Shown piece by piece: positions 20,734-64,000 of a stretch of 64,000 nt of DNA; the first letter of the stretch is position 1; every line of letters begins with the position of its first letter. The stretch covers positions 2,917,001 to 2,981,000 of the forward strand of contig JAYKKM010000122.1 in NCBI GenBank assembly GCA_035772405.1, written 5' to 3'. Made by a program: the position numbers and the translations under genes. The notes beneath the pieces are model-generated. The model was not told where the DNA came from, ran no database searches, and saw nothing but the letters and a program-made list of their open reading frames with translations. Source of the stretch: Chrysogorgia sp. JL179-B06. Lineage: Eukaryota > Cnidaria > Anthozoa > Scleralcyonacea > Chrysogorgiidae.

Positions 20734-20784
<51 letters not shown>

Positions 20785-20796
20785 ATTATTATTATT
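20734..20796. repeat. (ATT)n microsatellite, unit 1, empty site for LINE C
   Basis: Continuous ATT tract ending aatattattattattgattatcccgg. It is the unoccupied counterpart of the LINE C insertion in unit 2. Confidence 0.95.
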
Positions 20797-21182: not shown

Positions 21183-21420
21183 TTTCTCTGAGGATACGAG
21201 CTTGACGATCGTCCATGTATCGTCTCAATAACAAGCATGTTCGTCATTGTTTTCATTGTTTCTTGACCTTGTTATAACAAGTTGTAACGACAATATTAAC
21301 AACATTGAACAAAGCCATAACAACACAGTGTTGTCATAGCTGAACAACCTCGTTGACAACACTGTATCCATTACATATACCTAGTTTTTCATACCTATTC
21401 TGCCATCACTCTGTTCACAG

Positions 21421-21537
21421 ATATTGATGAATGCGCTGACAATGTTTGTCACGTGAATGCCACGTGTGACAACTCGATTGGTTCATTTCAATGCACGTGT
21501 AATTCAGGATTTGGTGGTGATGGAATGAATTGCACAG
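21421..21537 (+). CDS. cbEGF exon a1
   Basis: 117 nt, 39 codons, phase 1-1, acceptor ctctgttcacag, donor GTAAATAT. It encodes a complete six-cysteine calcium-binding EGF module beginning with the Ca2+ ligand motif DIDEC and carrying the hydroxylation/Ca2+ consensus C-x-[DN]-x4-F-x-C ([10 protein letters not shown]). NAT and NCT are N-glycosylation sites. Version a ends CNSGFGGDGMNCT. Such exons can be added or lost without changing the frame, and consecutive copies join as TDIDEC. Tandem cbEGFs form rigid extracellular rods in fibrillin- and Notch-like proteins; here they follow a PAN and an EGF module. It is the first cbEGF exon of the gene in the window. Confidence 0.9.
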
Positions 21538-21608
21538 GTAAATATTTTTACATGAAGAATAAAAAAATAGAGTGTAGAATCTAAACCACATATTAATGCG
21601 ATCATATA

Positions 21609-23756: not shown

Positions 23757-23934
23757 AGTTATTGTTCATAGTGTTAATTTGACCATGTTATAACAAGTTG
23801 TAACGACAATATTAACAACATTGAACAAAGCCATAACAACATTGTTGTCATAGCTGAACAACCTCGTTGACAACATTGTATCCATTACATATACCTAATT
23901 TTTCATACCTATTCTGCCATTACTCTGTTCACAG

Positions 23935-24051
23935 ATATTGATGAATGCGCTGACAATGTTTGTCACGTGAATGCCACGTGTGACAACTCGATTGGTTCAT
24001 TTCAATGCACGTGTAATTCCGGATTTAGTGGTGATGGAATGAATTGCACAG
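23935..24051 (+). CDS. cbEGF exon b1
   Basis: Same length, phases and splice signals as exon a1. It differs from version a at two bases: tcc for tca (silent Ser) and agt for ggt, giving [13 protein letters not shown] (Gly to Ser between the last two cysteines). Version b also has a distinct upstream intron end (cctaatttttcatacc) and is always followed by the block at 24052-24660 and LINE B. Confidence 0.9.
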
Positions 24052-24660
24052 GTAAATATTTTTACATGAAGGATAAAAAAATAGAGTGTAGAATCTAAAC
24101 CACATATTAATGCGATCATATAGCCTTATAATATTAAAATAACATACCGGTTATCATATGGCGCGTTTATACTGTCAAAATTCAACATGACCATTTGAAC
24201 GCATTTACTTGAAAGCAGCAAGCCCGCGAAGTTATAAATTTTCCATTTAAGCAACACTTTTGCCATATGGAACTTCACGTTTGTAATAATTGCTGAATTG
24301 AACGACTTATCTGGCGGTCGATCGGTCATATTTCAAATCGAACAAACGAACGGGAATACCCTTCTAATATTAAAATAACATACGGAATCATGTGTGATGA
24401 TGTGATGTCACCGTTCTCAAAAACATTGAGGTTAGTGCATCATGTCTCCTTGAATTAAGAAGCTGTCGTTTGTTGCCGAGTTCCACTCGGTAACAGGAAT
24501 GTTCTGTACGTTTAAAAGCGCCGATAAACTCACAAAGGAACACTGATTCCCTAATTAGAAAATTAGAAATTTTCCCTGTTTTGAGGGAAAATTACGGTAT
24601 TGAGGGAATTTAGAGTCCAAATTTCCCCTTGAAAACTATAAAAAACAGAGGTAATCATGA
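24052..24660. other. Intron after exon b, conserved in all units
   Basis: It holds a 235-bp block between two near-identical direct repeats taatattaaaataacatac (about 24129-24149 and 24366-24386), which may be a large target duplication. The minus open frame 24126-24329 is conserved because the DNA is duplicated; I see no domain in it. From about 24560 an A/T-rich near-palindrome (ttttccctgttttgagggaaaa) precedes the ATT run. Confidence 0.5.
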
Positions 24661-24676
24661 TATTATTATTATTATT
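24661..24676. repeat. (ATT)5, 3' flank of LINE B1
   Basis: Short ATT run at the 3' end of the minus-strand LINE B. It was probably once continuous with the ATT run at 26958. Confidence 0.85.
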
Positions 24677-26957
24677 TCTTAATCACAGTGTAAATAGACA
24701 CTGCATGAAACTCCTCCGTCGGGCAGCAACCAGCTGCCTTAGATCGTGAGGGTTCTTGTGAGGATTCGGGCTGATCCCAGTAACACTGTCTTCTGAATCA
24801 CATCCACTCCTATCGACACATTTATGTTTTTCAAATACCACTTCAGGTTAACGGAGACAGTTCCTAATGCACCTATCACAATAGGAACGATCTTAACCTC
24901 CTTTAACTTCCACAGCGCCTTCATTTCAGTAGCCAGTTCCACGTACTTGTTTACCTTTTCTTCCTCCTTCCCCACCACCTTACTATCTCCTGGGCATGCC
25001 ACGTCTATTAATTGGCAGCTTCGATCCTTCTTTCGTATGACCACAATATCAGGTCGATCATGATCAATTCTTTTGTCGGTTTGAATAGAGAAGTCCCACA
25101 AGATCTTAATGTCATCACTTTCCATCTTTTCTCTGGATCGTGTTCATACCATTTCTCTTCGTGCTCTAATCCGTACTGTTTGCATATGTCCCAATGCAGA
25201 GCTTTTGCGACTCCGTCATGTCTGCGTTTGTACTCTGTTTGTGCCAGCTTGGAGCATTCACTCAACAGATGGTTAGCTGTTTCGTCTTTCCTTTCATACC
25301 AGCGACACAGCGAGTTTCCCTGAGTCTTGTCAATTTTAGCCTTGATGCCGTTAGTTCTTAATGCCTGACTCTGTGCAGCCATCAGCAACCCTTCTGTCTC
25401 TTTCTTCAGCTGACCCTTTCTTAACCATGTCCAACTTTCTTCACTGGCTACCTTCTCTGTTTGCCTTAGGAATTGCCCATGCAACTCTTTTGCCTTCAAT
25501 TCTTCCTTTCTTTCCTACTTCCTCCTCTCCTTGTGCTCTCTAAGACACTCTTCTGTGGTAGTTCTACCTTGAGTCGCTGCTTTCAATATCCTTTCCTGAC
25601 TCTCATCAATATACGTTGCGAGTCCTAGCTTTGCCTCTTCCACACAGTCTTGCACGGATATAAGTTCGCGTTCTCCCATCTTTCTTGGGAGATATATTCG
25701 AGCCATACATATTATGAAACTTCCTTGTTCTTCGGTCCAGTTCCCTTACCTCTTCCTTGGTTCAGTCCATAAAACCTGCCGGATATCTCAGTAGTGATAC
25801 CGCCCAGGTATTAATTCCTATAATGAGGTTTCCTTCATTAAGCTTTGATCGCAATAGTTTCGTTACCCTACGGATATATTCCTTTGATAAAATTTCTTTC
25901 ATTTCCTTGCACATAACTTGATCTGTTTCAAGGATACCAAGATATCTGTAGCTTGACCCTTCTTGGAGCGTTTTGATCTCTTTGCCATCTGGCATACTTA
26001 TTCTGCGAGAACTTGTAACTTTGCCTCTTTTCACGACACCGAAAGCCATTCCAATATCGGTACTAAACACTCTGACAGTATTAACCAGTGACTCTAATCC
26101 CCTTTCCGACTTTGAAAACAACTTAAGGTCATCCATGAAGAGCAGGTGGTTGATTTTTTCTCCGTTCAAATCGTATCCAAGCTTAGATTTTCTAAGAATC
26201 AGACTCAACGGTATCAGTGAGGTGACGAACAGTAAGGGTGACAATGCATCTCCTTGAAAGTTGCCCCTGTTGATCTTAACTTCTCCTATCGTTGTGGAGC
26301 GCGATGAGAGCTCGCGGTTCTCCAGCTCTTCCTGATGACAACCAGCAGCTTCTTAATGTTCTCAGCAATTCCAAACAGGTCAAGGCATTCTTCAATGCAT
26401 GTATGCGGTAGCAAATCATAAGCTTTTTGGTAATCTATCCAAGCCATGGTTAGGTTCTTATGGTTGGCGCGAGCGTTCCTCAGTATCATCTTATCAATAA
26501 ACAGAAGGTCATGTGTTCCTTTAGATTGCTTCCTAGCACCCTTTTGTTCTTCTGGTGACAACTCATGTTCAAGCAGAAACCCATACATTTCTTCAGATAT
26601 TATTCCTGTCAGCAGTTTCCACATGGTATAGGCACGTTATTCGGGCCTATAATTGCTTGCGCCATTGCCGTTATTGCGGTCTTTCATTATGAGAACAGTC
26701 CTGCCTTTGGTCATCCATCCAGGTACTCCTCCATCTCCCATGCACATGTTTAACTGCTGTATACCAGCCTTTTATGGCTACATGAGAGATTCTTTATCCA
26801 AAACCCTTGAACTAAGTCGGGTCCGGTTGCTTTCCAGTTAGGGATCTTCTTGATGATTGTTCTTAATTTATCAAGACTTATCAAGAGGTCTTCCTGTCTA
26901 TTCTCTTGTACATCTTGTCTGATCTTTTCTAGCCACTTCGCATCTTTTTTGTGTTCA
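24677..26957 (-). mobile_element. RLE-type LINE 'B', copy 1
   Basis: About 2.28 kb, 5'-truncated: the minus strand enters at KWLEKIRQDVQ just before RT motif NWKATGPD. Order: RT fragment (27.0-26.75 kb), WKLLTGIISEE and motif A MAWIDYQKAYD (26624-26286), motif B DALSPLLF-type region and motif C LLFMDDLKLF (26244-25762), thumb YRYLGILETDQ, LRTNGIKAKID, a zinc-knuckle region (C...H..SEC), RRHDG, and the endonuclease RPDIVV...LIDVACPGD (25125-24739), ending GSARILTRTLTI. The family is related to A but clearly distinct. Frames are broken in at least four places. The element abuts ATT repeats at both ends. Confidence 0.85.
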
Positions 26958-26980
26958 TTATTATTATTATTATTATTATT
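26958..26980. repeat. (ATT)n between LINE B1 and LINE A2
   Basis: Short ATT run that separates the truncated 5' edge of B from the 3' end of A. Confidence 0.95.
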
Positions 26981-29900
26981 GTAACAATTCACACGTTTCT
27001 TTCGTGGTTCCCGTAATCTAAACATCAAGCTATAGCCTATAGCCTTACTGCCTTAGGTGTCTAGGGTCTTTCTTAAAATCCTTGCTGTTCCCAACAAGCA
27101 AGCGTTTTGAAGTAATGAAGTGCTATCATCCAATGACAATTGGTACGACCGTTACTCTTCTACAGTTCCAGATCTTCTTAATCTCCCTTTTAAGGTCTTG
27201 ATATTTTTCAATTTTTTCCTGTTCCTTTTCGAGTACTCGTATATCGAAGGGGCAAGCGACATCTATTACACAACATGTTCTCTCCTCCTTCTCCAAGACT
27301 ACAATATCGGGTCTATTGTGTTCAAGGTGATGATCTGTTTGGATGTTAAAGTCCCATAGTATCTTCACCCGATCGTTTTCCATTACACCTTCCGGAGCGT
27401 GGTCATACCACTTATACTTACACGGTAGGCTGAACTTCTGGCAAAGCTTCCAATGGATGACTTGTCCGACCTTGTCATGTCTCCACATTTTATATTCTTT
27501 TTGCGCTAATTTCTTACATTCCGCTGTTATATTTGGGGCTAACCCAGCTGGGACCAAGAGTCCGTTCGTTAAGCCCCTCATCATTTCTCGTACTCTTGTT
27601 TTTATGTATTAGTTTATTATGTACTTGTTTTGTATCTCGTGTACGTTTTGATGGAATTTTCTAATAAATAAATAAATAAATAAATTATATGACTAATAGT
27701 CTCTTCTCTTTCTCCACATAACCGACACATGGGTGACACATCCTCTTTATCGATCCGATTCTTGATACTGTTAGTTCGTAATGCCTGGTCTTGCGCAGCA
27801 GTCAGAAATCCTTCTGTGTCTTTCTTCATGGTACCTCTTTTCAACCATTTCCATGAGTCCGAGTCTCTCACATCTTCCGTTCCCTTCAGAAACTGTCCAT
27901 GTAATGCCTTATTTCTGTATCTAGTCTATCTTTATATATACTATCTGTATCTGTTATACTTTGCTTTGTCACCCCTTCATCCAAGATCTTTTCATGATCA
28001 TTTACAGCTTAAAGCAACCTTTCACTACTCGCCACGACATACTTGGATAAACTGCCTACTTCAATATTCACACAGTCCTCTACACTTATCAAACCTCGCC
28101 CACCCTCTGATCTTCTCACATAGAGCCTATCGACATCGGCCTGCGGGTGAAGTGCTCTGTTAATGGTTAGCAGCTTTCTCGTTTTCCTATCCAGCTTCCT
28201 GAGTTCTTCCTTGGTCCAGTTGATAATCCCTGCACCATAACGTATTATTGAGACTGCTCTTGAATTCATTGCGCTCACCACGTTTCCACCATTTAATTCT
28301 GATTTAAGCAACTTTCGTATCCTTCTCAAGTACTCTTTGGATATTGCCTCTTTCATGTCACCGTGTTTTAAATCATCTGCCTCTAAAATTCCAAGATATT
28401 TATATCCATCTCTTCTTCTAGTCCCCTGATAACTTGGGTGTCTGGCATCGTAATCCCTTCACACTTGGACACCTTTCCCCTTTTCATAATCAGGACTGCA
28501 CATTTTCTAATTCCAAACTCCATTCCAATGTCACTGCTGAAAACGCGAACGGTGTTTATAAGGGTACTTGTTTCTCGTTCTTTCCGTAAAGTTTCAAATC
28601 ATCCATAAATAAAAGATGATTTAAAAATCCCTTTCTACTTGCCAAGTCATAACCAGCTTTAACCTTCCTTAGTACCATCGACAAAGGGATAAGATCTAAC
28701 ACAAATAACAGTGGAGACAGACAATCTCCTTAGAAAATGCCTCTCCTTACATTTATTGACCCATGAAGGGTGCGCCCTCCTACAGTTAATTCCACTTGCT
28801 ATCGATTCATACTTCTTTCCAACAACAGGACCATATTTTCCGCAGCTCCAAACATTCGTAAACACTTGACGATCCATGAGTGCGGGATCATATCATACGC
28901 CTTTTTGTAATCCACCCAAGCCATCCCAAGACCAGTTTGTCTCCTTTTGTAATTCCTGATAACCATCTTGTCAATTAACAGTTGATCTTTGGTTCCCCTT
29001 GATTTCCTTCTACATCCCTTCTGTTCGTCTGGCAATAAATTCTCTTCCTCTAGGTGTTTCTAGAGCTCATCTCCCATTATCCCTGTAAACAGTTTCCACA
29101 TTAGGGGCAGGCAAGTTATAGGTCTAAAATTTGTTGCTACATTCCCCGGCCTTCTCCTTATCTTTAAGGATAAGCACTGTTCGACCTTTGGTAAACCATT
29201 CTGGTGTTTGGTTGATAGTAAGACAGTCATGTAATTGAGCGGCGATTCTTTCTCTAGATGACGTAAGATTCTTAAGCCAGAAACCTTGCAGTCCATCTGG
29301 TCCGGGAGCTTTCCAGTTAGCCATTTTCTTTAGTTGTTTTGCCACTTTAGCTACTGTTATCGTAATATAATTCTGTTTCTGTACTTCCTCAAGCTCGTCC
29401 TCTACATCTCTTAGCCATTCAGCACCTGTGTTGTGATTCATGGGGTTATCCCAAATACTACTCCAAAATCTCATGCTCTCTTCGGTATCTGCAGGTATAA
29501 CAGAATTATCCCTCTCTTCATTCTCCAATATTTCAAAAAGACGTTTTTGATTGGATTGAAACATTCTATTTTGCCGATACTGTTCTATCCTGCTTTGATA
29601 CCGCTTGATCTTACTAGTCTTTGCCAATATCCTCTGCTTCAGTTCTTCTAGAACAACAGCCGCTCCTTTCATTCTCAAATGGTACCTTCGTTCCAAACCC
29701 TCACATACAGCTATATTATGTAGCTCACCAGATCTCATCCTTTCCAACCTGCTGACATCTTTCCTTAGCTGCGCGATCTGGTTGTTAATCCTTCTTTTCC
29801 ACCATGGTTCCACCTTAGGTCTCCTTTCACACTGTTTAACCCCAAGCCTCTTTGCAACCACTCGTCCCGCCGCAAGTAACAACTCATTAGTTTGGGTTAT

Positions 29901-30412
29901 ATCTTTGGTTTCTAAAAATGTGAGGATTTTGTTCACTTCATTAACTTTTTCCTTCAACCTGCGCCTTTCGATGTTTCTCATGTTTGGAGGAGGGTCAGAC
30001 TCATTCTTCATACTATTTAAGACTTATTTTGCCAACTGAATCTGGTCTGCATTACACCCTTCTCTTTCCATCCTGTTTACCACGTCCTCAACATTTATCT
30101 CTGAATATTCATGTGGATGATCATTCCCGTTTTCTGTGTGCCCCTCTTCTCTCTGATCTGATAGGTTTTCCTCATCATCCGAAGTCTCTCCACGATGTAC
30201 ATAGTGACTTAGCTCTCTCTTTATCTCCTCCAGCTCCACCTCAGACAGCCAGCCATTTGTCCGGATCGCTCTAGCCTGATCGGCTAACCTCTGCTCGGAA
30301 CTTACAAACAGTCCTATCTCTTTCCAAATGCCAATCATCCTTTTCCTGTATCCCCTCTTTGATGGTTCACTCTTGAAGAAACACTTCATTACAATCTAGT
30401 TCACTTCCTTGT

Positions 30413-30414
<2 letters not shown>
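26981..30414 (-). mobile_element. RLE-type LINE 'A', copy 2
   Basis: Same structure and mostly the same disabling changes as A1 (stop before ATG 30011, frameshift near 29137, stop at 29060, foreign LINE tail at about 27537-27688). Particular to this copy: the motif B region is further damaged (cctta for ccttg before gaaaatg), an aatataattc variant (YITIT) and a 13-bp insertion near its 5' end (tcttgaagaaacacttc at 30372). It shares the Ala codon in QRILAKTSK with A4, whereas A1 and A3 have Val. In unit 2 its 5' ATT flank is occupied by LINE C. Confidence 0.85.

Positions 30415-30498
<84 letters not shown>
30415..30498. repeat. (ATT)n microsatellite, 5' flank of LINE C
   Basis: 84 bp of pure ATT repeat, with LINE C starting directly at its end. 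Poly-Ile and poly-Asn frames are artefacts. Confidence 0.97.
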
Positions 30499-30500
<2 letters not shown>

Positions 30501-30909
30501 ACTACCGAAATCGCCATTACAATGGTCAACCGCTAACGACTTTTTCAAACTGACCTTTTTAAACCACCCAATCACACCGCACGATTTGAATAACAACATC
30601 AACACCATGGCAACAGTTATATACAACTACTTTAGCGAAAATTTTGGACACGTTGATAACCACAACGATGTAAATTTGAGAAAAAAGTATGCGAAATCCT
30701 CGGTCAAGGACCTGAAAATCGCCTTAAAGAAATTAAAATCAGAAAACGGAGAAGTGCTAGAAATCAAATTCGTAGCCAAGAAACTGCGCAACCTTCTTAA
30801 ACCTAATAATGCCGATCAAGATAACATCAACAGTCAAAAGTCAGCGGAAATTGATCATGACAGTGTAATTACTAAAAACTTCTGGGGTTACGTTAAAAGA
30901 GTTTTTTAA
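30499..30909 (+). pseudogene. LINE C polyprotein, N-terminal segment before frameshift
   Basis: Frame 1 translation begins KLPKSPLQWSTANDFFKLTF directly after the ATT repeat and ends at GYVKRVF*, with basic, Lys-rich, possibly nucleic-acid-binding stretches (KYAKSSVKDLKIALKKLKS). The stop results from a run of six T in gttttttaaaaag; with five, the frame would continue into the downstream ORF in the same sense. No zinc finger or Myb motif is visible, so the true N-terminus is missing. Confidence 0.7.
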
Positions 30910-30940
30910 AAAGAAAATTTGCTCACTTCCATCATTTAAT

Positions 30941-33307
30941 ATGGCTCAATGCACATCATACTTCACTAAGACATTCTCTGCCATCAACCCAAATAAAGCG
31001 TTCAGCATCCCAAGCTGGATTCCAAAATTTGCTTCACCTCAAAAGCCATTTAATCTCGACCCCCCGACCTATCAAGAGATTACCAATGTCATCCGTAAAA
31101 TGAAACCGTCTGGCTCACCATGTCCACTTGACCAAATATCTATAATCTGTTTTAAACGCTGTCCCTACTTACGTTCCTATCTATCCGACATAATCCACTC
31201 AGCCTGGTCTCACGGCGCTGTCCCTTCTGATTGGAAAAAAGCATGTACAATACTTATACACAAGAAAGGAGAGACAGACGAACCAGCAAACTTTAGACCA
31301 ATAACACTTGAATCCATTCCACTTAAAGTTTTAACATCGTGCATTCGCAATAAAACATTTCAATTTATTGCGGAAAACAAGTATATAGAACAGAATATCC
31401 AAAAAGGCTTCACCCCAAAACTTTCCGGAACACTAGAACATACAGCTCAGATGGCGCATATAATCAACAAAGCGCGCACAAAACAACGATCTCTCGTCAT
31501 AACATTACTAGACCTAAAAAACGCATTTGGTGAAGTCCATCATAACCTTATTCACGAAGTCCTTGATTTTCACCATATCCCTGATCACATAAAGAATCTC
31601 ATTAGTAGCCTCTATACCGATTTCAAAACTTCCATCATCACAGATGAATTCAACACCCCATTCATCACTGTTGACCGAGGTGTGCTCCAAGGCGATTCTC
31701 TCAGTCCTCTCTTGTTCAATATGTCGTTCAATACTTTTATTCAACACATCAAGTTGGAAAAATACGGTCAACTTGGCTTCCGGAAACCAAACGATAGTAC
31801 TACCTTATTCAACCCAATCCACTGGTTACAATTTGCAGACGACGCTGCCGTTATCAGTGGTCAAGAAAAAGAAAATCAAATGCTTCTCAATCGCTTTACG
31901 ATCTGGTGTCAGTGGGCCAACATGATTATACGTGTGGATAAATGTTCAACATTTGGCATTAAAAAGGATTCAACAAAATCGGTCCAATATCTCCCCAAAC
32001 TGTTTGTAAATAACCATCTCGTACCACGTGTTGAAAATGGGAAATCGTTTCGTTACCTAGGCCGCTACTTTGACTTTAATATGTCCGAAGAAAATCACAA
32101 ATCTGAGCTACACGACACACTAACCGACATCATGAATGAAATTGACGAACTGCCATTACATCCAAAAAATAAAATTATGTTGTACAGCCGCTACGCACTT
32201 GCAAAAATCTCTTGGCACTTCACTGTTTCTGACATAGGTAAAACCTGGGTGAATGAAAAACTAGATGGTATTGCGTCGAAATATATACGGAAATGGCTTG
32301 AACTTCCCATCTCAGCAACACTTAGCAACGTCCTACTTCCTCGCAGTAAGTACGGTCTAAATATCATTCTCCCTTCAACGAAATTTCTTCAATGCCAAAC
32401 TGTTTCGCGAAAAGCTTTAAAATTATCACCAAATGAAGAAATTAGAAACCTATGGACTGTCACAAGTAATCACAAGAATGTGCAATACGACAAGTACAAA
32501 AACACAAAGGACGTACTAAACACTTTCAGAAAAGAACACGAAGAAAGGCTTCAACATCACCTTATTTCACAAGGTTCATTCTTTTCCAACATCATTAAAT
32601 ATTCGACTCTCTCGTTCAACTCCACATGGTCCTCAGTCCAAAGCAAACTCCCTAAGAACATATTTAACTTCACCATCCGATACATCAACAACACGCTTCC
32701 GACTCGCAAAAACCTTATGAAATGGGGAATATCACCTACATCTGACTGTTCATTCTGCTTGCAACCTGAGACCCTACTTCACGTCATTGCTGGTTGCCAA
32801 ACATACCTAAACGAAGGGCGGTTTACTTGGCGACATGACTCTGTTTTAAATTTTATTGCCTCCTCACTCAACTCCGTACAAAATTATAGCCTCTACGCTG
32901 ACATACCTGGCTACATCAGCCCATCTGTTCTCACCGGAGATAGATTACGCCCCGATCTTTTGGTAACAATCGAAAACAAATGTATATATATTCTCGAACT
33001 CACAGTCGGATTTGAATCCAATCTACTCAATAATGCCACCCGTAAGAGACAGAAGTATCAGGAACTAATTACGGAACAGAACAACAATTATGAACAAGTT
33101 AAATTTGTGAATCTGTCCATCAGCTCACTCGGAGTCTTCAGTCAACCATCATTAGAATTTATTGAAATGCTGAAAGATCTCAAATTTGACGAACGTTGCC
33201 GAAAATACTTCATGAAAAGAATAATTAACATTTGTATAAGAACCTCATACTATATTTTCTGTAAACGTAACAAAACCTGGGACAACCCAACACTAATGCA
33301 AAACTAA
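30941..33307 (+). CDS. LINE C reverse transcriptase and restriction-like endonuclease
   Basis: 788 codons uninterrupted. Domains by residue: RT entry around 55-80 (PSGSPCPLDQIS), NFRPITLESIP near 125, motif A LLDLKNAFGEVHH near 190 (catalytic Asp), motif B GVLQGDSLSPLLFN near 248, motif C LQFADDAAV near 298 (two catalytic Asp), SFRYLGRYFDF near 370, thumb, zinc knuckle CSFCLQPETLLHVIAGC near 602, RHD near 631, and endonuclease RPDLLVTIEN...ILELTVGFE near 670-695 (PD-(D/E)XK-type). Product: target-primed reverse transcriptase nicking its own target. The ATG at 30941 is simply the first Met after the frameshift; the native protein starts upstream. Catalytic residues look intact. Confidence 0.9.
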   Translation: MAQCTSYFTKTFSAINPNKAFSIPSWIPKFASPQKPFNLDPPTYQEITNVIRKMKPSGSPCPLDQISIICFKRCPYLRSYLSDIIHSAWSHGAVPSDWKKACTILIHKKGETDEPANFRPITLESIPLKVLTSCIRNKTFQFIAENKYIEQNIQKGFTPKLSGTLEHTAQMAHIINKARTKQRSLVITLLDLKNAFGEVHHNLIHEVLDFHHIPDHIKNLISSLYTDFKTSIITDEFNTPFITVDRGVLQGDSLSPLLFNMSFNTFIQHIKLEKYGQLGFRKPNDSTTLFNPIHWLQFADDAAVISGQEKENQMLLNRFTIWCQWANMIIRVDKCSTFGIKKDSTKSVQYLPKLFVNNHLVPRVENGKSFRYLGRYFDFNMSEENHKSELHDTLTDIMNEIDELPLHPKNKIMLYSRYALAKISWHFTVSDIGKTWVNEKLDGIASKYIRKWLELPISATLSNVLLPRSKYGLNIILPSTKFLQCQTVSRKALKLSPNEEIRNLWTVTSNHKNVQYDKYKNTKDVLNTFRKEHEERLQHHLISQGSFFSNIIKYSTLSFNSTWSSVQSKLPKNIFNFTIRYINNTLPTRKNLMKWGISPTSDCSFCLQPETLLHVIAGCQTYLNEGRFTWRHDSVLNFIASSLNSVQNYSLYADIPGYISPSVLTGDRLRPDLLVTIENKCIYILELTVGFESNLLNNATRKRQKYQELITEQNNNYEQVKFVNLSISSLGVFSQPSLEFIEMLKDLKFDERCRKYFMKRIINICIRTSYYIFCKRNKTWDNPTLMQN

Positions 33308-33414
33308 TATTATATATCATATATATCGTTAATTCAAGTAGACATTGGTGAACTACCTGTAAAAGAGAGGTTTATCATTGTAGTATATATCAATTATGAA
33401 TAAATAAAGTTTAC

Positions 33415-33441
33415 ATTATTATTATTAATATTATTATTATT
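33415..33441. repeat. (ATT)n, 3' flank of LINE C
   Basis: attattattattaatattattattattg; the aatatt interruption is shared with the empty sites in units 1, 3 and 4 and fixes the insertion point within the tract. Confidence 0.95.
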
Positions 33442-33827
33442 GATTATCCCGGACAGGAATCGAACCTGCAACCTTCTGATTGCCGGTGAGATGCTCTAAC
33501 CATTGAGCCACCGAGAGTCAGATGGAGAGCGAAGGTTACAATGATATGTACTACCAGTCGATTGATATATGTACTGCTAGTCGATTGATATATGTACTGC
33601 CTATGCAGCAGTCACTATATATCGGTAATGTTTGGATGTGTTAATTATATGTGTTAATTATAAATATTAACACATCCAAACATTACCGATATATAGTGAC
33701 TGCCGCATAGGCAGAACATATATCAATCCAATATGCAGTACATCATTGTAACCTTTGCTCTCCATCTGAGTCTCGGTGGCTCACCGGCAATCAGAAGGTT
33801 ACAGGTTCGATTCCTGTCCGGGACTCA
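33442..33827. mobile_element. Double-SINE foldback, unit 2
   Basis: As in unit 1: minus head with a full D arm (about 33446-33521) and plus head with the 17-nt D-arm deletion (to 33826), joined by the 'taacacatccaaacattaccg' palindrome. Confidence 0.8.
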
Positions 33828-34065
33828 TTTCTCTGAGGATACGAGCTTGACGATCGCCCATGTATCGTCTCAATAACAAGCATGTTCGTCATTGTTTTCA
33901 TTGTTTCTTGACCTTGTTATAACAAGTTGTAACGACAATATTAACAACATTGAACAAAGCCATAACAACACAGTGTTGTCATAGCTGAACAACCTCGTTG
34001 ACAACATTGTATCCATTACATATACCTAGTTTTTCATACCTATTCTGCCATTACTCTGTTCACAG

Positions 34066-34182
34066 ATATTGATGAATGCGCTGACAATGTTTGTCACGTG
34101 AATGCCACGTGTGACAACTCGATTGGTTCATTTCAATGCACGTGTAATTCAGGATTTGGTGGTGATGGAATGAATTGCACAG
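34066..34182 (+). CDS. cbEGF exon a2
   Basis: Version a (CNSGFGGDG), identical by eye to a1 over 117 nt. The upstream intron has cattactctgttcacag, where a1, a3 and a4 have catcactctgttcacag. Phase 1-1. Confidence 0.9.
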
Positions 34183-34254
34183 GTAAATATTTTTACATGA
34201 AGGTAAAAAAATAGAGTGTAGAATCTAAACCACATATTAATGCGATCATATATT

Positions 34255-35790: not shown

Positions 35791-36041
35791 TACCACCTTT
35801 TCACTTTGCTATATATTCAAAACACTGTCTACGCAGCACTCTTTTTTGTGTTCATTATTATTATTATTATATATGTACTGCCTATGCGGCAGTCACTATA
35901 TATCGGTAATGTCTGGATGTGTTAATTATATGTGTTAATTATAAATATTAACACAACCTTACCGATATATAGTGACTGCCGCACAGGCAGTACATATATC
36001 AATCGACCAGTACATCATTGTAACCTTTGCTCTCCATCTGA

Positions 36042-36116
36042 GTCTCGGTGGCTAAATGGTTAGAGCGTCTTACTGGCAATCAGAATTAGGTTACAGGTTC
36101 GATTCCTGTCCGGGAC
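36042..36116 (+). ncRNA. tRNA-like SINE head, complete cloverleaf
   Basis: All four arms can be drawn. The acceptor stem has 7 pairs (one G-T), D stem GCTA/GAGC is imperfect here, and T stem ACAGG/CCTGT is perfect. Two extra bases in gaattaggtt widen the variable region. GGC occupies the anticodon position without U33, so this is a SINE, not a tRNA gene. Copies: 38139-38213 and 61128-61202. Confidence 0.6.
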
Positions 36117-36189
36117 TCAGAATAATTTTTCTGAGGATACAGTACTAGCTTGACGATCGTCCATATATCGGAGTATTAAAAGCTAGTAC

Positions 36190-37874: not shown

Positions 37875-37966
37875 ATTCTAGGCAGTTTACCACCTTTTCA
37901 CTTTGCTATATATTCAAAACACTGTCTACGCAGCACTCTTTTTTGTGTTCATTATTATTATTATTA

Positions 37967-39945
37967 TATATGTACTGCCTATGCGGCAGTCACTATATAT
38001 CGGTAATGTCTGGATGTGTTAATTATATGTGTTAATTATAAATATTAACACAACCTTACCGATATATAGTGACTGCCGCACAGGCAGTACATATATCAAT
38101 CGACCAGTACATCATTGTAACCTTTGCTCTCCATCTGAGTCTCGGTGGCTAAATGGTTAGAGCGTCTTACTGGCAATCAGAATTAGGTTACAGGTTCGAT
38201 TCCTGTCCGGGACTCAGAATAATTTTTCTGAGGATACAATACTAGCTTGACGATCGTCCATATATCGGAGTCTTAAAAGCTAGTACTGTCCATGACCCAA
38301 CGTTTCGGCACTCCAATCTAGTGTCTTCATCAGGGGTGATCGTTGTAAAGTTAAGATCCCTATTTATACCTTCATAGAACCGATGATGACGTTATCTATA
38401 TTAACAAGATGCAAATAAGCTTCTGGTAATAAACCACCGTCATCGCGATTTTACGGCTTACCAAAAATTCACAAAATGGGAATTTCTTTGAGACCTAATT
38501 GTCTCATTTATCAATTCTCCGAGTTATGGTATATCGAGTCATTTGGGACAGGTTTTGTCACCCTTGTATTGTTGGGAAGTCCGCGGAGAACACAGTCAAA
38601 AATTCCCTTGAATTTGGGATTTTATTAAGAGTATTACTCTTAATACCGATAATGAATTGGTATCGTTTGACGTCGTTTCTCTCTTTACCAAAATACCAGT
38701 TGATCTTGCTATCACAATTGCCGACAATAGACTAAGACAGGATGTTACTTTAGATCAAAGAACATTGTTGCCTGTTGAGGATCTAATAGAACATTTGACG
38801 TTTTGTCAAAACACAACTAGTTTTGGCACTTACTATCAACAGGCTTTATTTAGTGATGGAAGACATTGAACAAAGAGCATTAGCGTCTGCGCCAGAGCCT
38901 TTGTTTTGGTCGATGATGTCATTTCCGCGGTATCCAAGAATGAAGCGGAAATTATTTTGAAGTTGAACCACTTGAACTCAATAGAGCGTTCAATTTAATT
39001 CACAGTAGAACGTGACTGAAAATAATGATTGTTTATCATTTTTGGATTCAGTCGTCAAATGAACAGACCACGGGAAATTAGAAACTGCTGTATACCGAAA
39101 ACCAACACACACTGACATATTTCATTTGATTCTCGTCACCACCCATATGCCATAAGAAGTCCGTTCCTAGAACTTTGTTTTTGAGAGCTCAAGGCATACC
39201 AACTAGTTAATTCCGATTCAAAGGAAAGTGAGCGAAAACATGTATTCGACGCTTTAAATGCAAATATCCTAATGATTTTCCGAAAAACTGTTTAAACCTG
39301 CAGTTACTCCGCCACGTACAAACTCTGAGAACGAAAGATCGGTGATGGGTTTTGCGATTGTTCCGTATATTCAAGGGATTACGGAACCAATTAAAAGAAT
39401 CTTAGGTAGTTTCAACGTAAAAGTTGTTCAAAAACCTTTCTTGACGTTGGATCATATTTTCGCAAAACCTAAGGATCCTATTGCGAAGGAACAGAGGAAA
39501 GACGCTTTATTCCATCCCATACAATGACTTTGATCAGGAGTACATCGGTCAGACTAAACGTCAGTTTCGTACGCGTTTAAAAGAACACCAAAAGGCTGTT
39601 TTCTTTTCAAAAAATGAAAATTCTGCTTTGTCGGAGCACTCGTGCGTAATCTACCATTAGATTGCGTGGGAAAATTCCAAAATTATTACCACTAATCCGC
39701 GGTTATCAAAAGCTTATTTGCATCTTGTTAGTAGATCACAGTTGATCAGCAAACGGCTGTAAAAATAGCAAATGATTTAACTTTTCGCATCTCATCTATT
39801 ATTAGTTTGTTTATCTCCCGTGCATTTGATTGGCTACTTTCTACTTTTGGCATATATATAAGCCCTATTTATTTGATTTCATTTCGTCTTACTCTGATGA
39901 AGGGCTCCGCTCGAAACGTCAGTAACTCGTCACTAAATTCTTGGC
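37967..39945 (+). mobile_element. 2.1-kb composite unit: SINE plus PLE 2c
   Basis: Third PLE in unit 2. It keeps the stretch gcgattgttccgtatattcaaggg (39350-39375; protein MGFAIVPYIQGITEPIKRI) that 1, 2a, 2b, 3 and 4a lack. It ends with the 'last-copy' 3' repeat version (agcaaacggctgtaaaaatagc; tttgatttcatttcgtc). Confidence 0.8.
39889..39936 (+). ncRNA. Hammerhead motif, PLE 2c
   Basis: CTGATGA at 39894-39900. The stem III loop differs (tcagtaact), keeping the cgtc triplet. Confidence 0.65.
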
Positions 39946-40626: not shown

Positions 40627-40804
40627 AGTTATTGTTCATAGTGTTAATTTGACCATGTTATAACAAGTTGTAACGACAATATTAACAACATTGAACAAAG
40701 CCATAACAACATTGTTGTCATAGCTGAACAACCTCGTTGACAACATTGTATCCATTACATATACCTAATTTTTCATACCTATTCTGCCATTACTCTGTTC
40801 ACAG

Positions 40805-40921
40805 ATATTGATGAATGCGCTGACAATGTTTGTCACGTGAATGCCACGTGTGACAACTCGATTGGTTCATTTCAATGCACGTGTAATTCCGGATTTAGTG
40901 GTGATGGAATGAATTGCACAG
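40805..40921 (+). CDS. cbEGF exon b2
   Basis: Version b (CNSGFSGDG), no difference from b1 by eye, phase 1-1, same splice sites. The following intron is interrupted by an L2/CR1-type LINE at 41617. Confidence 0.9.
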
Positions 40922-41546
40922 GTAAATATTTTTACATGAAGGATAAAAAAAGAGAGTGTAGAATCTAAACCACATATTAATGCGATCATATAGCCTTATA
41001 ATATTAAAATAAATACCGGTTATCATATGGCGCGTTTATACTGTCAAAATTCAACATGACCATTTGAACGCATTTACTTGAAAGCAGCAAGCCCGCGAAG
41101 TTATAAATTTTCCATTTAAGCAACACTTTTGCCATATGGAACTTCACGTTTGTAATAATTGCTGAATTGAACGACTTATCTGGCGGTCGATCGGTCATAT
41201 TTCAAATCGAACAAACGAACGGGAATACCCTTCTAATATTAAAATAACATACGGAAATCATGTGTGATGATGTGATGTCACCGTTCTCAAAAACATTGAG
41301 GTTAGTGCATCATGTCTCCTTGAATTAAGAAGCTGTCGTTTGTTGCCGAGTTCCACTCGATAACAGGAATGTTCTGTACGTTTAAAAGCGCCGATAAACT
41401 CACAAAGGAACACTGATTCCCTAATTAGAAAATTAGAAATTTTCCCTGTTTTGAGGGAAAATTACGGTATTGAGGGAATTTAGAGTCCAAATTTCCCCTT
41501 GAAAACTATAAAAACAGAGGTAATCATGATATTATTATTATTATTT
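40922..41546. other. Intron after exon b2, with ATT run
   Basis: Same block as 24052-24676, including the two direct repeats and the short minus frame (41004-41198, 3'-shifted by a small deletion: aataaatacc). The ATT run at about 41529-41546 marks the 3' end of LINE B2. Confidence 0.6.
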
Positions 41547-47303: not shown

Positions 47304-48129
47304 ACCAGATCCAGTGGCGTGGTGGCTCGAATATTTCAAGGGGGGCCACTGGCCAGTGCTAAATTGGCGCCCCCAGAGATGCCAAATCCAGTTGCAAATC
47401 TGACATAAGCGAGCGCCGAAGGCGCGAGAAGCGAGCGCCGAAGGCGTGAGTTGTCCGCTTTCTAGGGGGGTTTGGGGGCATGCACCCCCGAAATTTTTGA
47501 AATCTAGAGTCTCTGAAATGCCATTTCCTGCGTTCTGGGGAAAGATTTTACAGAATTCCCATGGTTAGAAAATAACATTTTTTGTATCAAGATTTACAAT
47601 TTGTTTAGAAATTTATAGGGTTTTACAAGAACGAAGAGACTGAAGAGAGACTGTTAGAAAATAATTTTGTTCCTGGTCAAATGTCAATAACGTATAGTCA
47701 GAATATACTATAGCCTATAGGCTAAAGTTTATGCACGTTGAGCATAATATAACACTAACTTAACAGTTTTAAAAGACAACCGATTAACCGAATGCAAGTC
47801 AATTAGTCAAAGTAGAGCATTTGACAGTTCGGGAGAAAGCTTTGCGTACAAGTTGATGAGACGGTCTTTATCGCATTTGAGCAAAATTTTACGCTCGATT
47901 GTCATTGAAAGCAACGATTCAAGTCTCTCCTGAACCATGGACGAACGAATTCGAGTCTTCACCCTCTTGAGTGCAGAAAATGAACGCTTTAATTTAAATT
48001 TTACACACTAATCCAGGCCCTTCTTGGTAATTTTGGCGCCCACCGTCCGTGTCGGCGCCCCTCCTGAAACCATCGCTGGGGGGGCCATGGCCCCCCGGCC
48101 CCCCCGGCCACCACGCCACTGACCAGATC
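47304..48129. mobile_element. Non-autonomous hAT element with 8-bp target duplication
   Basis: Element 47312-48121 (810 bp): terminal repeats CAGTGGCGTGGTGGC and GCCACCACGCCACTG, flanked by the exact duplication ACCAGATC (47304-47311 and 48122-48129). The empty site gctcaccagatctcatcc is seen in A1, A2 and A4. Eight-bp duplications and CAGTGGCG ends are characteristic of hAT. Internal sequence related to 10785-10890 shows the family has other copies in the window. Confidence 0.92.
47807..47992 (-). pseudogene. hAT transposase C-terminal fragment
   Basis: The minus frame LKRSFSALKRVKTRIRSSM, then QERLESLLSMTIER, matches the C-terminal dimerisation region of hAT transposases (the xRSFSxLKxxKTxLRSxMxxERL signature), ending in TGA at 47807. 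The catalytic core is absent, so the element depends on a transposase elsewhere. Confidence 0.85.
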
Positions 48130-48790: not shown

Positions 48791-48841
<51 letters not shown>

Positions 48842-48853
48842 ATTATTATTATT
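48791..48853. repeat. (ATT)n microsatellite, unit 3, empty site for LINE C
   Basis: Unoccupied ATT tract ending aatattattattattgattatcccgggc as in unit 1. Confidence 0.95.
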
Positions 48854-49239: not shown

Positions 49240-49477
49240 TTTCTCTGAGGATACGAGCTTGACGATCGTCCATGTATCGTCTCAATAACAAGCATGTTCG
49301 TCATTGTTTTCATTGTTTCTTGACCTTGTTATAACAAGTTGTAACGACAATATTAACAACATTGAACAAAGCCATAACAACACAGTGTTGTCATAGCTGA
49401 ACAACCTCGTTGACAACACTGTATCCATTACATATACCTAGTTTTTCATACCTATTCTGCCATCACTCTGTTCACAG

Positions 49478-49594
49478 ATATTGATGAATGCGCTGACAAT
49501 GTTTGTCACGTGAATGCCACGTGTGACAACTCGATTGGTTCATTTCAATGCACGTGTAATTCAGGATTTGGTGGTGATGGAATGAATTGCACAG
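49478..49594 (+). CDS. cbEGF exon a3
   Basis: Version a, identical by eye to a1; acceptor catcactctgttcacag, donor gtaaat; phase 1-1. Confidence 0.9.
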
Positions 49595-49665
49595 GTAAAT
49601 ATTTTTACATGAAGAATAAAAAAATAGAGTGTAGAATCTAAACCACATATTAATGCGATCATATA

Positions 49666-51809: not shown

Positions 51810-51987
51810 AGTTATTGTTCATAGTGTTAATTTGACCATGTTATAACAAGTTGTAACGACAATATTAACAACATTGAACAAAGCCATAACAACATTGTTG
51901 TCATAGCTGAACAACCTCGTTGACAACATTGTATCCATTACATATACCTAATTTTTCATACCTATTCTGCCATTACTCTGTTCACAG

Positions 51988-52104
51988 ATATTGATGAATG
52001 CGCTGACAATGTTTGTCACGTGAATGCCACGTGTGACAACTCGATTGGTTCATTTCAATGCACGTGTAATTCCGGATTTAGTGGTGATGGAATGAATTGC
52101 ACAG
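51988..52104 (+). CDS. cbEGF exon b3
   Basis: Version b, no difference from b1 or b2 seen; phase 1-1. Confidence 0.9.
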
Positions 52105-52729
52105 GTAAATATTTTTACATGAAGGATAAAAAAATAGAGTGTAGAATCTAAACCACATATTAATGCGATCATATAGCCTTATAATATTAAAATAACATAC
52201 CGGTTATCATATGGCGCGTTTATACTGTCAAAATTCAACATGACCATTTGAACGCATTTACTTGAAAGCAGCAAGCCCGCGAAGTTATAAATTTTCCATT
52301 TAAGCAACACTTTTGCCATATGGAACTTCACGTTTGTAATAATTGCTGAATTGAACGACTTATCTGGCGGTCGATCGGTCATATTTCAAATCGAACAAAC
52401 GAACGGGAATACCCTTCTAATATTAAAATAACATACGGAATCATGTGTGATGATGTGATGTCACCGTTCTCAAAAACATTGAGGTTAGTGCATCATGTCT
52501 CCTTGAATTAAGAAGCTGTCGTTTGTTGCCGAGTTCCACTCGGTAACAGGAATGTTCTGTACGTTTAAAAGCGCCGATAAACTCACAAAGGAACACTGAT
52601 TCCCTAATTAGAAAATTAGAAATTTTCCCTGTTTTGAGGGAAAATTACGGTATTGAGGGAATTTAGAGTCCAAATTTCCCCTTGAAAACTATAAAAACAG
52701 AGGTAATCATGATATTATTATTATTATTT
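52105..52729. other. Intron after exon b3 with ATT run
   Basis: Same block as 24052-24676; ATT run at about 52713-52729. Confidence 0.6.
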
Positions 52730-58443: not shown

Positions 58444-58509
<66 letters not shown>

Positions 58510-58521
58510 ATTATTATTATT
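58444..58521. repeat. (ATT)n microsatellite, unit 4, empty site for LINE C
   Basis: Unoccupied ATT tract, about 78 bp, with the same aatatt interruption before gattatcccgg. Confidence 0.95.
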
Positions 58522-58908
58522 GATTATCCCGGACAGGAATCGAACCTGCAACCTTCTGATTGCCGGTGAGATGCTCTAACCATTGAGCCACCGAGAGTCA
58601 GATGGAGAGCGAAGGTTACAATGATATGTACTACCAGTCGATTGATATATGTACTGCTAGTCGATTGATATATGTACTGCCTATGCAGCAGTCACTATAT
58701 ATCGGTAATGTTTGGATGTGTTAATTATATGTGTTAATTATAAATATTAACACATCCAAACATTACCGATATATAGTGACTGCCGCATAGGCAGAACATA
58801 TATCAATCCAATATGCAGTACATCATTGTAACCTTTGCTCTCCATCGGTGAGTCTCGGTGGCTCACCGGCAATCAGAAGGTTACAGGTTCGATTCCTGTC
58901 CGGGACTC
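58522..58908. mobile_element. Double-SINE foldback, unit 4
   Basis: Same structure, with a small insertion (catcggtgagtctcgg) before the D-arm-deleted plus head. Confidence 0.8.
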
Positions 58909-59147
58909 ATTTCTCTGAGGATACGAGCTTGACGATCGTCCATGTATCGTCTCAATAACAAGCATGTTCGTCATTGTTTTCATTGTTTCTTGACCTTGTT
59001 ATAACAAGTTGTAACGACAATATTAACAACATTGAACAAAGCCATAACAACACAGTGTTGTCATAGCTGAACAACCTCGTTGACAACACTGTATCCATTA
59101 CATATACCTAGTTTTTCATACCTATTCTGCCATCACTCTGTTCACAG

Positions 59148-59264
59148 ATATTGATGAATGCGCTGACAATGTTTGTCACGTGAATGCCACGTGTGACAAC
59201 TCGATTGGTTCATTTCAATGCACGTGTAATTCAGGATTTGGTGGTGATGGAATGAATTGCACAG
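59148..59264 (+). CDS. cbEGF exon a4
   Basis: Version a, identical by eye to a1 and a3, acceptor catcactctgttcacag; phase 1-1. Confidence 0.9.
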
Positions 59265-59335
59265 GTAAATATTTTTACATGAAGAATAAAAAAATAGAGT
59301 GTAGAATCTAAACCACATATTAATGCGATCATATA

Positions 59336-60875: not shown

Positions 60876-60953
60876 TTACCACCTTTTCACTTTGCTATAT
60901 ATTCAAAACACTGTCTACGCAGCACTCTTTTTTGTGTTCATTATTATTATTAT

Positions 60954-62940
60954 TATATATGTACTGCCTATGCGGCAGTCACTATATATCGGTAATGTCT
61001 GGATGTGTTAATTATATGTGTTAATTATAAATATTAACACAACCTTACCGATATATAGTGACTGCCGCACAGGCAGTACATATATCAATCGACCAGTACA
61101 TCATTGTAACCTTCGCTCTCCATCTGAGTCTCGGTGGCTAAATGGTTAGAGCGTCTCACTGGCAATCAGAATTAGGTTACAGGTTCGATTCATGTCCGGG
61201 ACTCAGAATAATTTTTCTGAGGATACAGTATACTAGCTTGACGATCGTCCATATCTCGGAGTCTTAAAAGCTAGTACTGTCCATGACCCAACGTTTCGGC
61301 ACTCCAATCTAGTGTCTTCATCAGGGGTGATCGTTGTAAAGTTAAGATCCCTATTTATACCTTCATAGAACCGATGATGACGTTATCTATATTAACAAGA
61401 TGCAAATAAGCTTCTGGTAATAAACCACCGTCATCGCGATTTTACGGCTTACCAAAAATTCACAAAATGGGAATTTCTTTGAGACCTAATTGTCTCATTT
61501 ATCAATTCTCCGAGTTATGGTATATCGAGTCATTTGGGACAGGTTTTGTCACCCTTGTATTGTTGGGAAGTCCGCGGAGAACACAGTCAAAAATTCCCTT
61601 GAATTTGGGATTTTATTAAGAGTATTACTCTTAATACCGATAATGAATTGGTATCGTTTGACGTCGTTTCTCTCTTTACCAAAATACCAGTTGATCTTGC
61701 TATCACAATTGCCGACAATAGACTAAGACAGGATGTTAATACTTTAGATCAAAGAACATTGTTGCCTGTTGAGGATCTAATAGAACATTTGACGTTTTGT
61801 CAAAAACACAACTAGTTTTGGCACTTACTATCAACAGGCTTTATTTAGTGATGGAAGACATTGAACAAAGAGCATCAGCGTCTGCGCCAGAGCCTTTGTT
61901 TTGGTCGATGATGTCATTTCCGCGGTATCCAAGAATGAAGCGGAAATTATTTTGAAGTTGAACCACTTGAACTCAATAGAGCGTTCAATTTAATTCACAG
62001 TAGAACGTGACTGAAAATAATGATTGTTTATCATTTTTGGATTCAGTCGTCAAATGAACAGACCACGGGAAATTAGAAACTGCTGTATACCGAAAACCAA
62101 CACACACTGACATATTTCATTTGATTCTCGTCACCACCCATATGCCATAAGAAGTCCGTTCCTAGAACTTTGTTTTTGAGAGCTCAAGGCATACCAACTA
62201 GTTAATTCCGATTCAAAGGAAAGTGAGCGAAAACATGTATTCGACGCTTTAAATGCAAATATCCTAATGATTTTCCGAAAAACTGTTTAAACCTGCAGTT
62301 ACTCCGCCACGTACAAACTCTGAGAACGAAAGATCGGTGATGGGTTTTGCGATTGTTCCGTATATTCAAGGGATTACGGAACCAATTAAAAGAATCTTAG
62401 GTAGTTTCAACGTAAAAGTTGCTCAAAAACCTTTCTTGACGTTGGATCATATTTTCGCAAAACCTAAGGATCCTATTGCGAAGGAACAGAGGAAAGACGC
62501 TTTATTCCATCCCATACAATGACTTTGATCAGGAGTACATCGGTCAGACTAAACGTCAGTTTCGTACGCGTTTAAAAGAACACCAAAAGGCTGTTTTCTT
62601 TTCAAAAAAGGAAAATTCTGCTTTGTCGGAGCACGCGTGCGTAATCTACCATTAGATTGCGTGGGAAAATTCCAAAATTATTACCACTAATCCGCGGTTA
62701 TCAAAAGCTTATTTGCATCTTGTTAGTAGATCACAGTTGATCAGCAAACGGCTGTAAAAATAGCAAATGATTTAACTTTTCGCATCTCATCTATTATTAG
62801 TTTGTTTATCTCCCGTGCATTTGATTGGCTACTTTCTACTTTTGGCATATATATAAGCCCTATTTATTTGATTTCATTTCGTCTTACTCTGATGAAGGGC
62901 TCCGCTCGAAACGTCAGTATTTCGTCACTAAATTCTTGGC
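60954..62940 (+). mobile_element. 2.1-kb composite unit: SINE plus PLE 4b
   Basis: Second PLE of unit 4, closest to PLE 2c: it keeps IVPYIQGITEPIKRI (62337-62400) and the last-copy 3' repeat. SINE head 61128-61202. A 3-bp insertion (gttaatacttt) and an extra A (gtcaaaaacac) break the RT frame. Confidence 0.8.
62884..62931 (+). ncRNA. Hammerhead motif, PLE 4b
   Basis: CTGATGA at 62889-62895, same arms as at 23029. Confidence 0.65.
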
Positions 62941-63609: not shown

Positions 63610-63790
63610 GTTATTGTTCATAGTGTTAATTTGACCATGTTATAACAAGTTGTAACGACAATATTAACAACATTGAACAAAGCCATAACAATTTACATTG
63701 TTGTCATAGCTGAACAACCTCGTTGACAACATTGTATCCATTACATATACCTAATTTTTCATACCTATTCTGCCATTACTCTGTTCACAG

Positions 63791-63907
63791 ATATTGATGA
63801 ATGCGCTGACAATGTTTGTCACGTGAATGCCACGTGTGACAACTCGATTGGTTCATTTCAATGCACGTGTAATTCCGGATTTAGTGGTGATGGAATGAAT
63901 TGCACAG
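63791..63907 (+). CDS. cbEGF exon b4
   Basis: Version b, eighth and last cbEGF exon in the window; donor gtaaat, phase 1, so the gene continues beyond 64000. With exons 1-3 and the seven other cbEGF exons it gives a continuous 461-codon reading frame plus one base. Confidence 0.9.
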
Positions 63908-64000
63908 GTAAATATTTTTACATGAAGGATAAAAAAATAGAGTGTAGAATCTAAACCACATATTAATGCGATCATATAGCCTTATAATATTAAAATAACA

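Follow-up and report, generated by a model that had tools for sequence, protein, structure and literature searches.

Part of one report states that (TAA)n is the target of R4/Dong retrotransposons in most insects, mollusks, and cnidarians (PMC7998251), and in the relevant portion of another study, Dong was assayed with TAA repeats upstream and is described as carrying a 5′ ribozyme (PMC3774820). Among other LINEs with a restriction-like endonuclease (RLE), some HERO families are called microsatellite-specific in a passage of one paper (PMC4640811), and a passage of another counts HEROFr, HEROTn, and HERODr among the families that lack target specificity (PMC3636483). According to an excerpt on telomeric elements, TRAS and SART enter the Bombyx (TTAGG)n repeat in opposite directions (PMC7265360).

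Here we describe a locus of the octocoral Chrysogorgia sp. JL179-B06 in which three RLE LINEs, A, B, and C, lie on one ATT/AAT microsatellite. The window, that is, the whole stretch of 64,000 nucleotides analyzed, belongs to a contig of the 781-Mb genome and is part of a tandem array, in which ten A-bearing units were distinguishable (C122:2934303 to 3048731). Positions below are those of the window unless a contig is given.

Three RLE LINEs in the second array unit

Unit 2 of the array reads (ATT)5-B-(ATT)8-A-(ATT)28-C-(ATT)4-AAT-(ATT)4, with A and B on the minus strand and C on the plus strand (Table 1). The first-pass annotation, made from the letters of the window, had described the three elements as starting and ending at ATT runs in the order ATT-B-ATT-A-ATT-C-ATT, with C opposite to A and B; the tract coordinates and strands agree with this, and all six ends adjoin ATT/AAT runs. 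At the A/B junction, the tract counts 14 repeats in unit 1, 12 in unit 3, and 8 in unit 4. In unit 1, B is nearly all gone and only its 5′ edge beside the tract is kept.

Table 1 Features of the window. Strand is given where it applies.
Feature	Position	Strand	Remarks
Empty site for C, unit 1	20734-20796		
(ATT)5 tract, 3′ end of B	24662-24676		
LINE B, R4/Dong-like	24678-26956	-	5′-truncated, broken frame; RT, CCHC, RLE pieces
(ATT)8 tract	26957-26980		A 3′ end to truncated B 5′ edge
LINE A, R4/Dong-like	26981-30414	-	5′-truncated, broken frame
(ATT)28 tract	30415-30498		Truncated A 5′ end to truncated C 5′ end
LINE C, RLE element	30500-33414	+	Clade apart from A/B; 5′-truncated
C open frame, 812 aa	30869-33307	+	RVT_1, zf-RVT, RLE motif RPDLL..ELTV
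(ATT)4-AAT-(ATT)4	33415-33441		Right part of target tract: (ATT)4 33415-33426, AAT, (ATT)4 33430-33441
Empty site for C, unit 3	48791-48853		
Empty site for C, unit 4	58444-58521		
Exon-like repeat copies	21263-21608, 23779-24122, 33908-34252, 40649-40992, 49320-49665, 51832-52175, 58990-59335, 63631-63978		
tRNA-Ala-like sequences	33445-33517, 36042-36118, 38139-38215, 58525-58597, 61128-61204		

C carries RT, CCHC, and RLE together in one ORF, as an RLE LINE does, and its RLE motif aligns with that of R2; one frame break lies near 30900. Its relatives reach ~1074 aa and bear N-terminal Cys/His motifs (by eye), and the species named among those listed are two octocorals, Paramuricea clavata and Dendronephthya gigantea. 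The match of C to the 1074-aa relative P0001 starts at residue 140 of the latter, which coincides with the end of (ATT)28. A and B are broken copies with the R4/Dong-type RT-CCHC-RLE (PD..D) arrangement, in which CCHC and RPDIV..IDVA motifs were recognized by eye. The B motif reads RPDIVV..IDVACP and one Cys of its CCHC is changed, and the last Cys of the A CCHC lies beyond an insertion. A holds an insertion at ~27533-27684 that many A copies outside the array lack. The A relative P0121 comprises 1117 aa; ~47 N-terminal residues are missing in A (by eye), and the truncation removed ~47 codons plus the 5′ UTR. B matches the A family, and its start at the tract falls inside the ORF. Since A, B, and C each begin inside the element at a tract, all three are 5′-truncated and none is full length. 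The RT and RLE motifs found in all three uphold their earlier identification as RLE LINEs.

Several further observations concern the array. An exon-like stretch of ~346 bp is repeated in it; the one copy tested encodes a calcium-binding EGF domain (EGF_CA, 34068-34184). The array may therefore be part of a gene with EGF repeats, with the LINE stacks in its introns. The tRNA-Ala-like sequences, detected with ARAGORN and Rfam, lie in inverted-repeat stretches, two of them adjoining the ATT tract, and are perhaps SINE or foldback parts. The A copy of unit 3 has an insert of ~800 bp with a 22-bp tandem repeat (47311-48119) that is absent from units 1, 2, and 4, and a similar gap was seen for the copy at C122:2996127-3000333. 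The A copy of the window and three others (L057, L059, and L061) are truncated at nearly one point, beside AAAATGG, perhaps owing to AAT-repeat microhomology or one truncated source. Three partial copies, which we take by eye to be Penelope-like from their SFDVVSLFTKIP motif, end in 13 bp plus (ATT)5 at 35842-35870, 37939-37967, and 60928-60956. These letters are the same as the truncated 5′ edge of B, yet B is absent there, which looks like recombination at ATT.

Clade placement of the three elements was examined with an unrooted RT tree built on 405 columns from 34 sequences, among which R4, Dong, HERO, and NeSL had no named representative. A paired with P0121 (0.996) and B with P0153 (0.931), and A and B fell in one clade, on the same side as the loci L001-L004 of a split from R2 and C. 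The C family joined R2 against A, B, and L001-L004 with a support of 1.000, a value that belongs to an unrooted tree with long branches. This split suggests that two of the stacked families are R4/Dong-like and that the third element belongs to a different RLE clade. The first-pass annotation had pointed to the Dong/R4 group as RLE LINEs known to insert into TAA repeats and expected the RT phylogeny to place the three elements in RLE clades; A and B indeed look R4/Dong-like by sequence and lie in (TAA)n with TAA in sense, but C does not stand with them and appears to group nearer R2, on its long branch. We rejected C as an R4/Dong member because the RT tree separates it from A and B and its sense repeat is ATT, not AAT. 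An R2-clade assignment by the 28S rDNA target was also rejected, as all 38 best-scoring C copies with an intact 3′ end have that end at ATT.

At the 5′ end of full-length A, a P1/P2/P3 layout could be drawn by hand, with a score that was reached by 10 of 2000 single-base shuffles; when six A 5′ ends were compared with Rfam, none matched a ribozyme family at E ≤ 1. Pfam gave no Myb/SANT-like match in P0121 at E ≤ 5. A published case of a divergent N-terminal Myb/SANT-like domain relied, in the part concerned, on HHpred (PMC7998251). For six C loci, Rfam returned only bxd_4 matches near E 1, which we take as chance. No relatives of C or A were found in scans of viral contigs. One scan of bacterial genomes gave four R4-like loci; bacterial R4-like LINEs were discarded as probable contamination (L001 in a Streptomyces record, L002 and L003 in cyanobacterium MAG records), and 28S rDNA was recognized by eye at the ends of L002 and L003.

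The target tract before C and flanks across the genome

C was absent from nine of the ten array units examined, namely units 1, 3, and 4 and six units beyond the window (L074-L079). In each of the nine, 16-22 ATT units precede the AAT break and the four closing ATT units that are also seen in the right tract of unit 2. Because a 19-bp deletion in A, absent from unit 2, is common to units 1, 3, and 4, these three cannot be counted as independent of one another. The doubt that this cast on the empty sites was dropped, because L079, alone among the nine, keeps the 19 bp together with the CTAG variant of unit 2 and yet is empty. Its right flank also reads as in unit 2, and with the shared left-flank variants it shows better than any other unit how the site looked before C inserted. 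The precise empty sites reported earlier for units 1, 3, and 4 are thus confirmed, with six more, and they show the tract before C, contrary to the case of tails generated at non-ATT targets. The filled tract comprises 28 + 4 = 32 ATT units at this single site (n = 1), against 16-22 in the nine empty ones. The growth of the microsatellite, of which the first-pass annotation had spoken, is only suggested by this one event and may be slippage.

The flanks of C elsewhere in the genome were scored in the 40 best of 1007 first-look candidates, a sample that is not random and is biased to young copies. ATT directly followed all 38 copies with an intact 3′ end (window copy included); at least two pure units were present in 37, at least three in 31, and at least four in 25, seven copies having only one or two. 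In L094, ATTT precedes the ATT repeats. The two copies left out of the 38 (L102 and L103) are 3′-truncated and end elsewhere. At the 5′ end, ATT was found at 28 of 29 fetched loci outside the window, including 19 scored full length; a script placed 26 of the 29 and found (ATT)3 at 24, and the misplaced L031 and the unplaced L017, L026, and L030 were read by eye. The one exception, L018, has a non-ATT minisatellite at its 5′ end and only two ATT units at its 3′ end. C as a whole is flanked by repeat sequence and not by the unrelated DNA that the first-pass annotation had named as a refutation. Eight further copies have a match starting inside C; six of these adjoin ATT, one (L086) has an internal deletion, and one (L092) was left out. 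The chance level, estimated from 30-bp distal-flank windows around C copies, was 9/1534 for (ATT)3 and 1/1534 for (AAT)3.

For A and B, the 40 best of 481 and of 193 candidates, respectively, were used, again not at random. Of the A 3′ ends listed, 19 lie outside the C122 array, and 18 of these are followed by (AAT)3 or more; two of the 19 (L036 and L046) lie less than 500 bp apart, and L050 has no AAT and meets a C-like 3′ end instead. By eye, 16 of 20 A 5′ ends, taken from the 22 listed outside the array that reach A position 1, clearly adjoin (AAT)3 or more, the others being L058 (no AAT), L055 (two units), L062 (weak), and L067 (mixed). Among 20 B 3′ ends, taken from about 27 listed outside the array, 18 have at least two units and 15 at least three; the sequence around the two misses (L114 and L120) is rich in AAT, and L114 has a C-like 3′ end next to it. 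Sixteen B 5′ breaks were fetched, of which seven adjoin AAT, one lies ~45 bp from AAT, and eight are not at AAT; B copies are ~5-11% diverged, so some of these breaks may be internal. Overall, the earlier expectation that most 3′ ends would be followed by TAA or ATT repeats held for all three families.

Besides the full-length reference set, the C family comprised 208 protein records. At least six unrelated N-terminal residues were present in 13 of them, and in three of these (P0066, P0115, and P0251) long Ile/Tyr runs, readable from (ATT)n, precede the truncated homology. In the A family, P0159 has an Ile run and P0205 an Asn run followed by a Tyr run. Read from proteins, not codons, such runs are weak evidence.

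C spread recently, as its low divergence and mostly private substitutions indicate. Over 2915 bp, the 28 C copies compared (window copy included) differ by a mean of 9.5 substitutions; 102 substitutions are private, compared with 35 shared cells (hand sums), and a frame of 934-935 aa over this part is kept in 11 of them.

Orientation at the tract and recurrent stacks

Junction pieces were turned so that the tract read ATT before orientation was scored. C-like 3′ termini beside tracts were in ATT sense in 19 of 19 cases, two of them from one C triple, and none was reversed. At the protein level, C-like matches in ATT sense were obtained for 19 pieces, of which 14 independent junctions or neighbors remain: L016 and L018 were rejected because they match P0352 in a part unrelated to C, as was L086, the focal copy itself, and four of the remaining pieces belong to the C123 triple. 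The single reverse C match (27%) was in L023, beside R4-like sequence. R4-like matches were reverse in six pieces, one of them weak (L009, 31%) and several some hundred bases from the tract; the two in ATT sense (L006, 28% identity; L018, 34%) were weak and not at the tract. R4-like elements thus run with AAT and C-like elements with ATT, one direction per lineage, which supports the earlier proposal that target strand choice may differ between families.

Stacks recur in the genome. A and C-like elements stand tail to tail in L038 (the same place as L029), L044, L048, and L050. Head-to-tail C-like stacks include L011, L021, L026, L027, L028, L034, L087, L088, and L093, and successive R4-like elements in AAT sense were seen in L041, L043, L057, and L059 (the last two by eye). 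In the C123 triple, the starts of three C copies are spaced by 3461 bp, and (ATT)4 separates each copy from the next; this triple may be a tandem duplication. Targeting of the repeat by the three families is supported by their 3′ ends at ATT/AAT genome-wide.

Probable insertion into the repeat and comparison with known systems

A, B, and C are very probably RLE non-LTR retrotransposons that insert into (ATT/AAT)n by target-primed reverse transcription, given that the tract predates C, that the elements end in repeat units, and that many 5′-truncated copies stop at a tract. From the sense flanks, AAT for A and B and ATT for C, the endonuclease would nick the ATT strand in the case of A/B and the AAT strand in that of C. 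The 3′ end of the RNA, in or beside the same repeat, would anneal to the nicked repeat as the primer. Repeat units left on both sides would keep the site a target, so that later insertions could stack, C-like elements head to tail and R4-like against C-like elements tail to tail. One short ATT/AAT repeat can in this way collect several LINEs in a row.

The benefit of earlier insertions to later ones is a separate matter. The chances are about even that the stacks are a coincidence of several families on limited tracts, with no such benefit. (ATT)8 has 61,859 matches in the 781 Mb (both strands, overlaps counted), and 100 listed places, on contigs C1-C3 only, represent 15 tracts by hand count; extrapolation from C1-C3 gives very roughly 9,300 tracts of at least eight units, ~0.05% of the genome. 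The control pattern for this count, being the repeat itself in a different phase, is uninformative. Set against the 1007 first-look C candidates, occupancy may be high, and no observation decides against coincidence. The proposal that ATT tracts are self-renewing landing pads, in which insertions add units by target duplication or slippage and two RLE clades keep a dispersed niche, one strand each, is speculative and in our view rather unlikely.

The orientation rule itself might be set by the tail of the RNA, which would be (AUU)n in C and (AAU)n in A/B and would anneal to whichever strand was nicked, and not by strand choice of the endonuclease. The sense flank repeats fit such tails, but nicking choice and tail annealing would give identical junctions, and we consider the tail a real though lesser possibility. 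Recombination between ATT tracts, which could have joined the elements or removed C from the other units, appears improbable: array breakpoints do occur at ATT (the B edge of unit 1 and the same edge at 35842, 37939, and 60928) and C is flanked by direct repeats that would permit clean excision, but like neighbor arrangements exist on other contigs with different partners, and C is absent in nine of ten units, including L079, the sister with the same left flank. Slightly more improbable still, the runs could be element-made tails at targets of any sequence, since TAA-repeat ends are described for the I element in part of one paper (PMC3747384) and some copies have only two 3′ units; this is rejected because the repeats also stand 5′, even of 5′-truncated copies, and, in the case of C, because L079 and the eight other empty units hold 16-22 units without it.

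Insertion into the microsatellite as the preferred reading places A and B close to R4/Dong elements such as Dong of Bombyx and Darwinula, which combine an RLE with a (TAA)n target; the hand-drawn layout of full-length A may also be of the Dong 5′ ribozyme kind. C differs from R4/Dong by the RT tree and its sense repeat. By description, C may be compared with HERO, being likewise an RLE LINE in a microsatellite, with relatives that bear N-terminal Cys/His motifs. Among solved structures, R2 matches the relatives of A and C best, the RLE motif region aligning weakly, but its target is 28S rDNA and not a microsatellite. R4/Dong in (TAA)n is already published; a second RLE lineage on the opposite strand with recurrent stacks looks new, and none of the papers listed in our literature search, which covered few subscription papers, was seen to describe two RLE clades that use opposite strands of a shared microsatellite. 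As a young family, C could serve as a living system for the study of insertion, strand choice, and repeat growth.

Two separate RLE lineages thus share one of the simplest possible targets, one strand each. The nearest parallel is TRAS/SART, two families that likewise use one simple repeat in opposite directions. TRAS and SART are R1-clade elements with another endonuclease type and lie in telomeric repeats, whereas the RLE elements described here lie in microsatellites on many contigs, as a non-telomeric, RLE counterpart of that arrangement.
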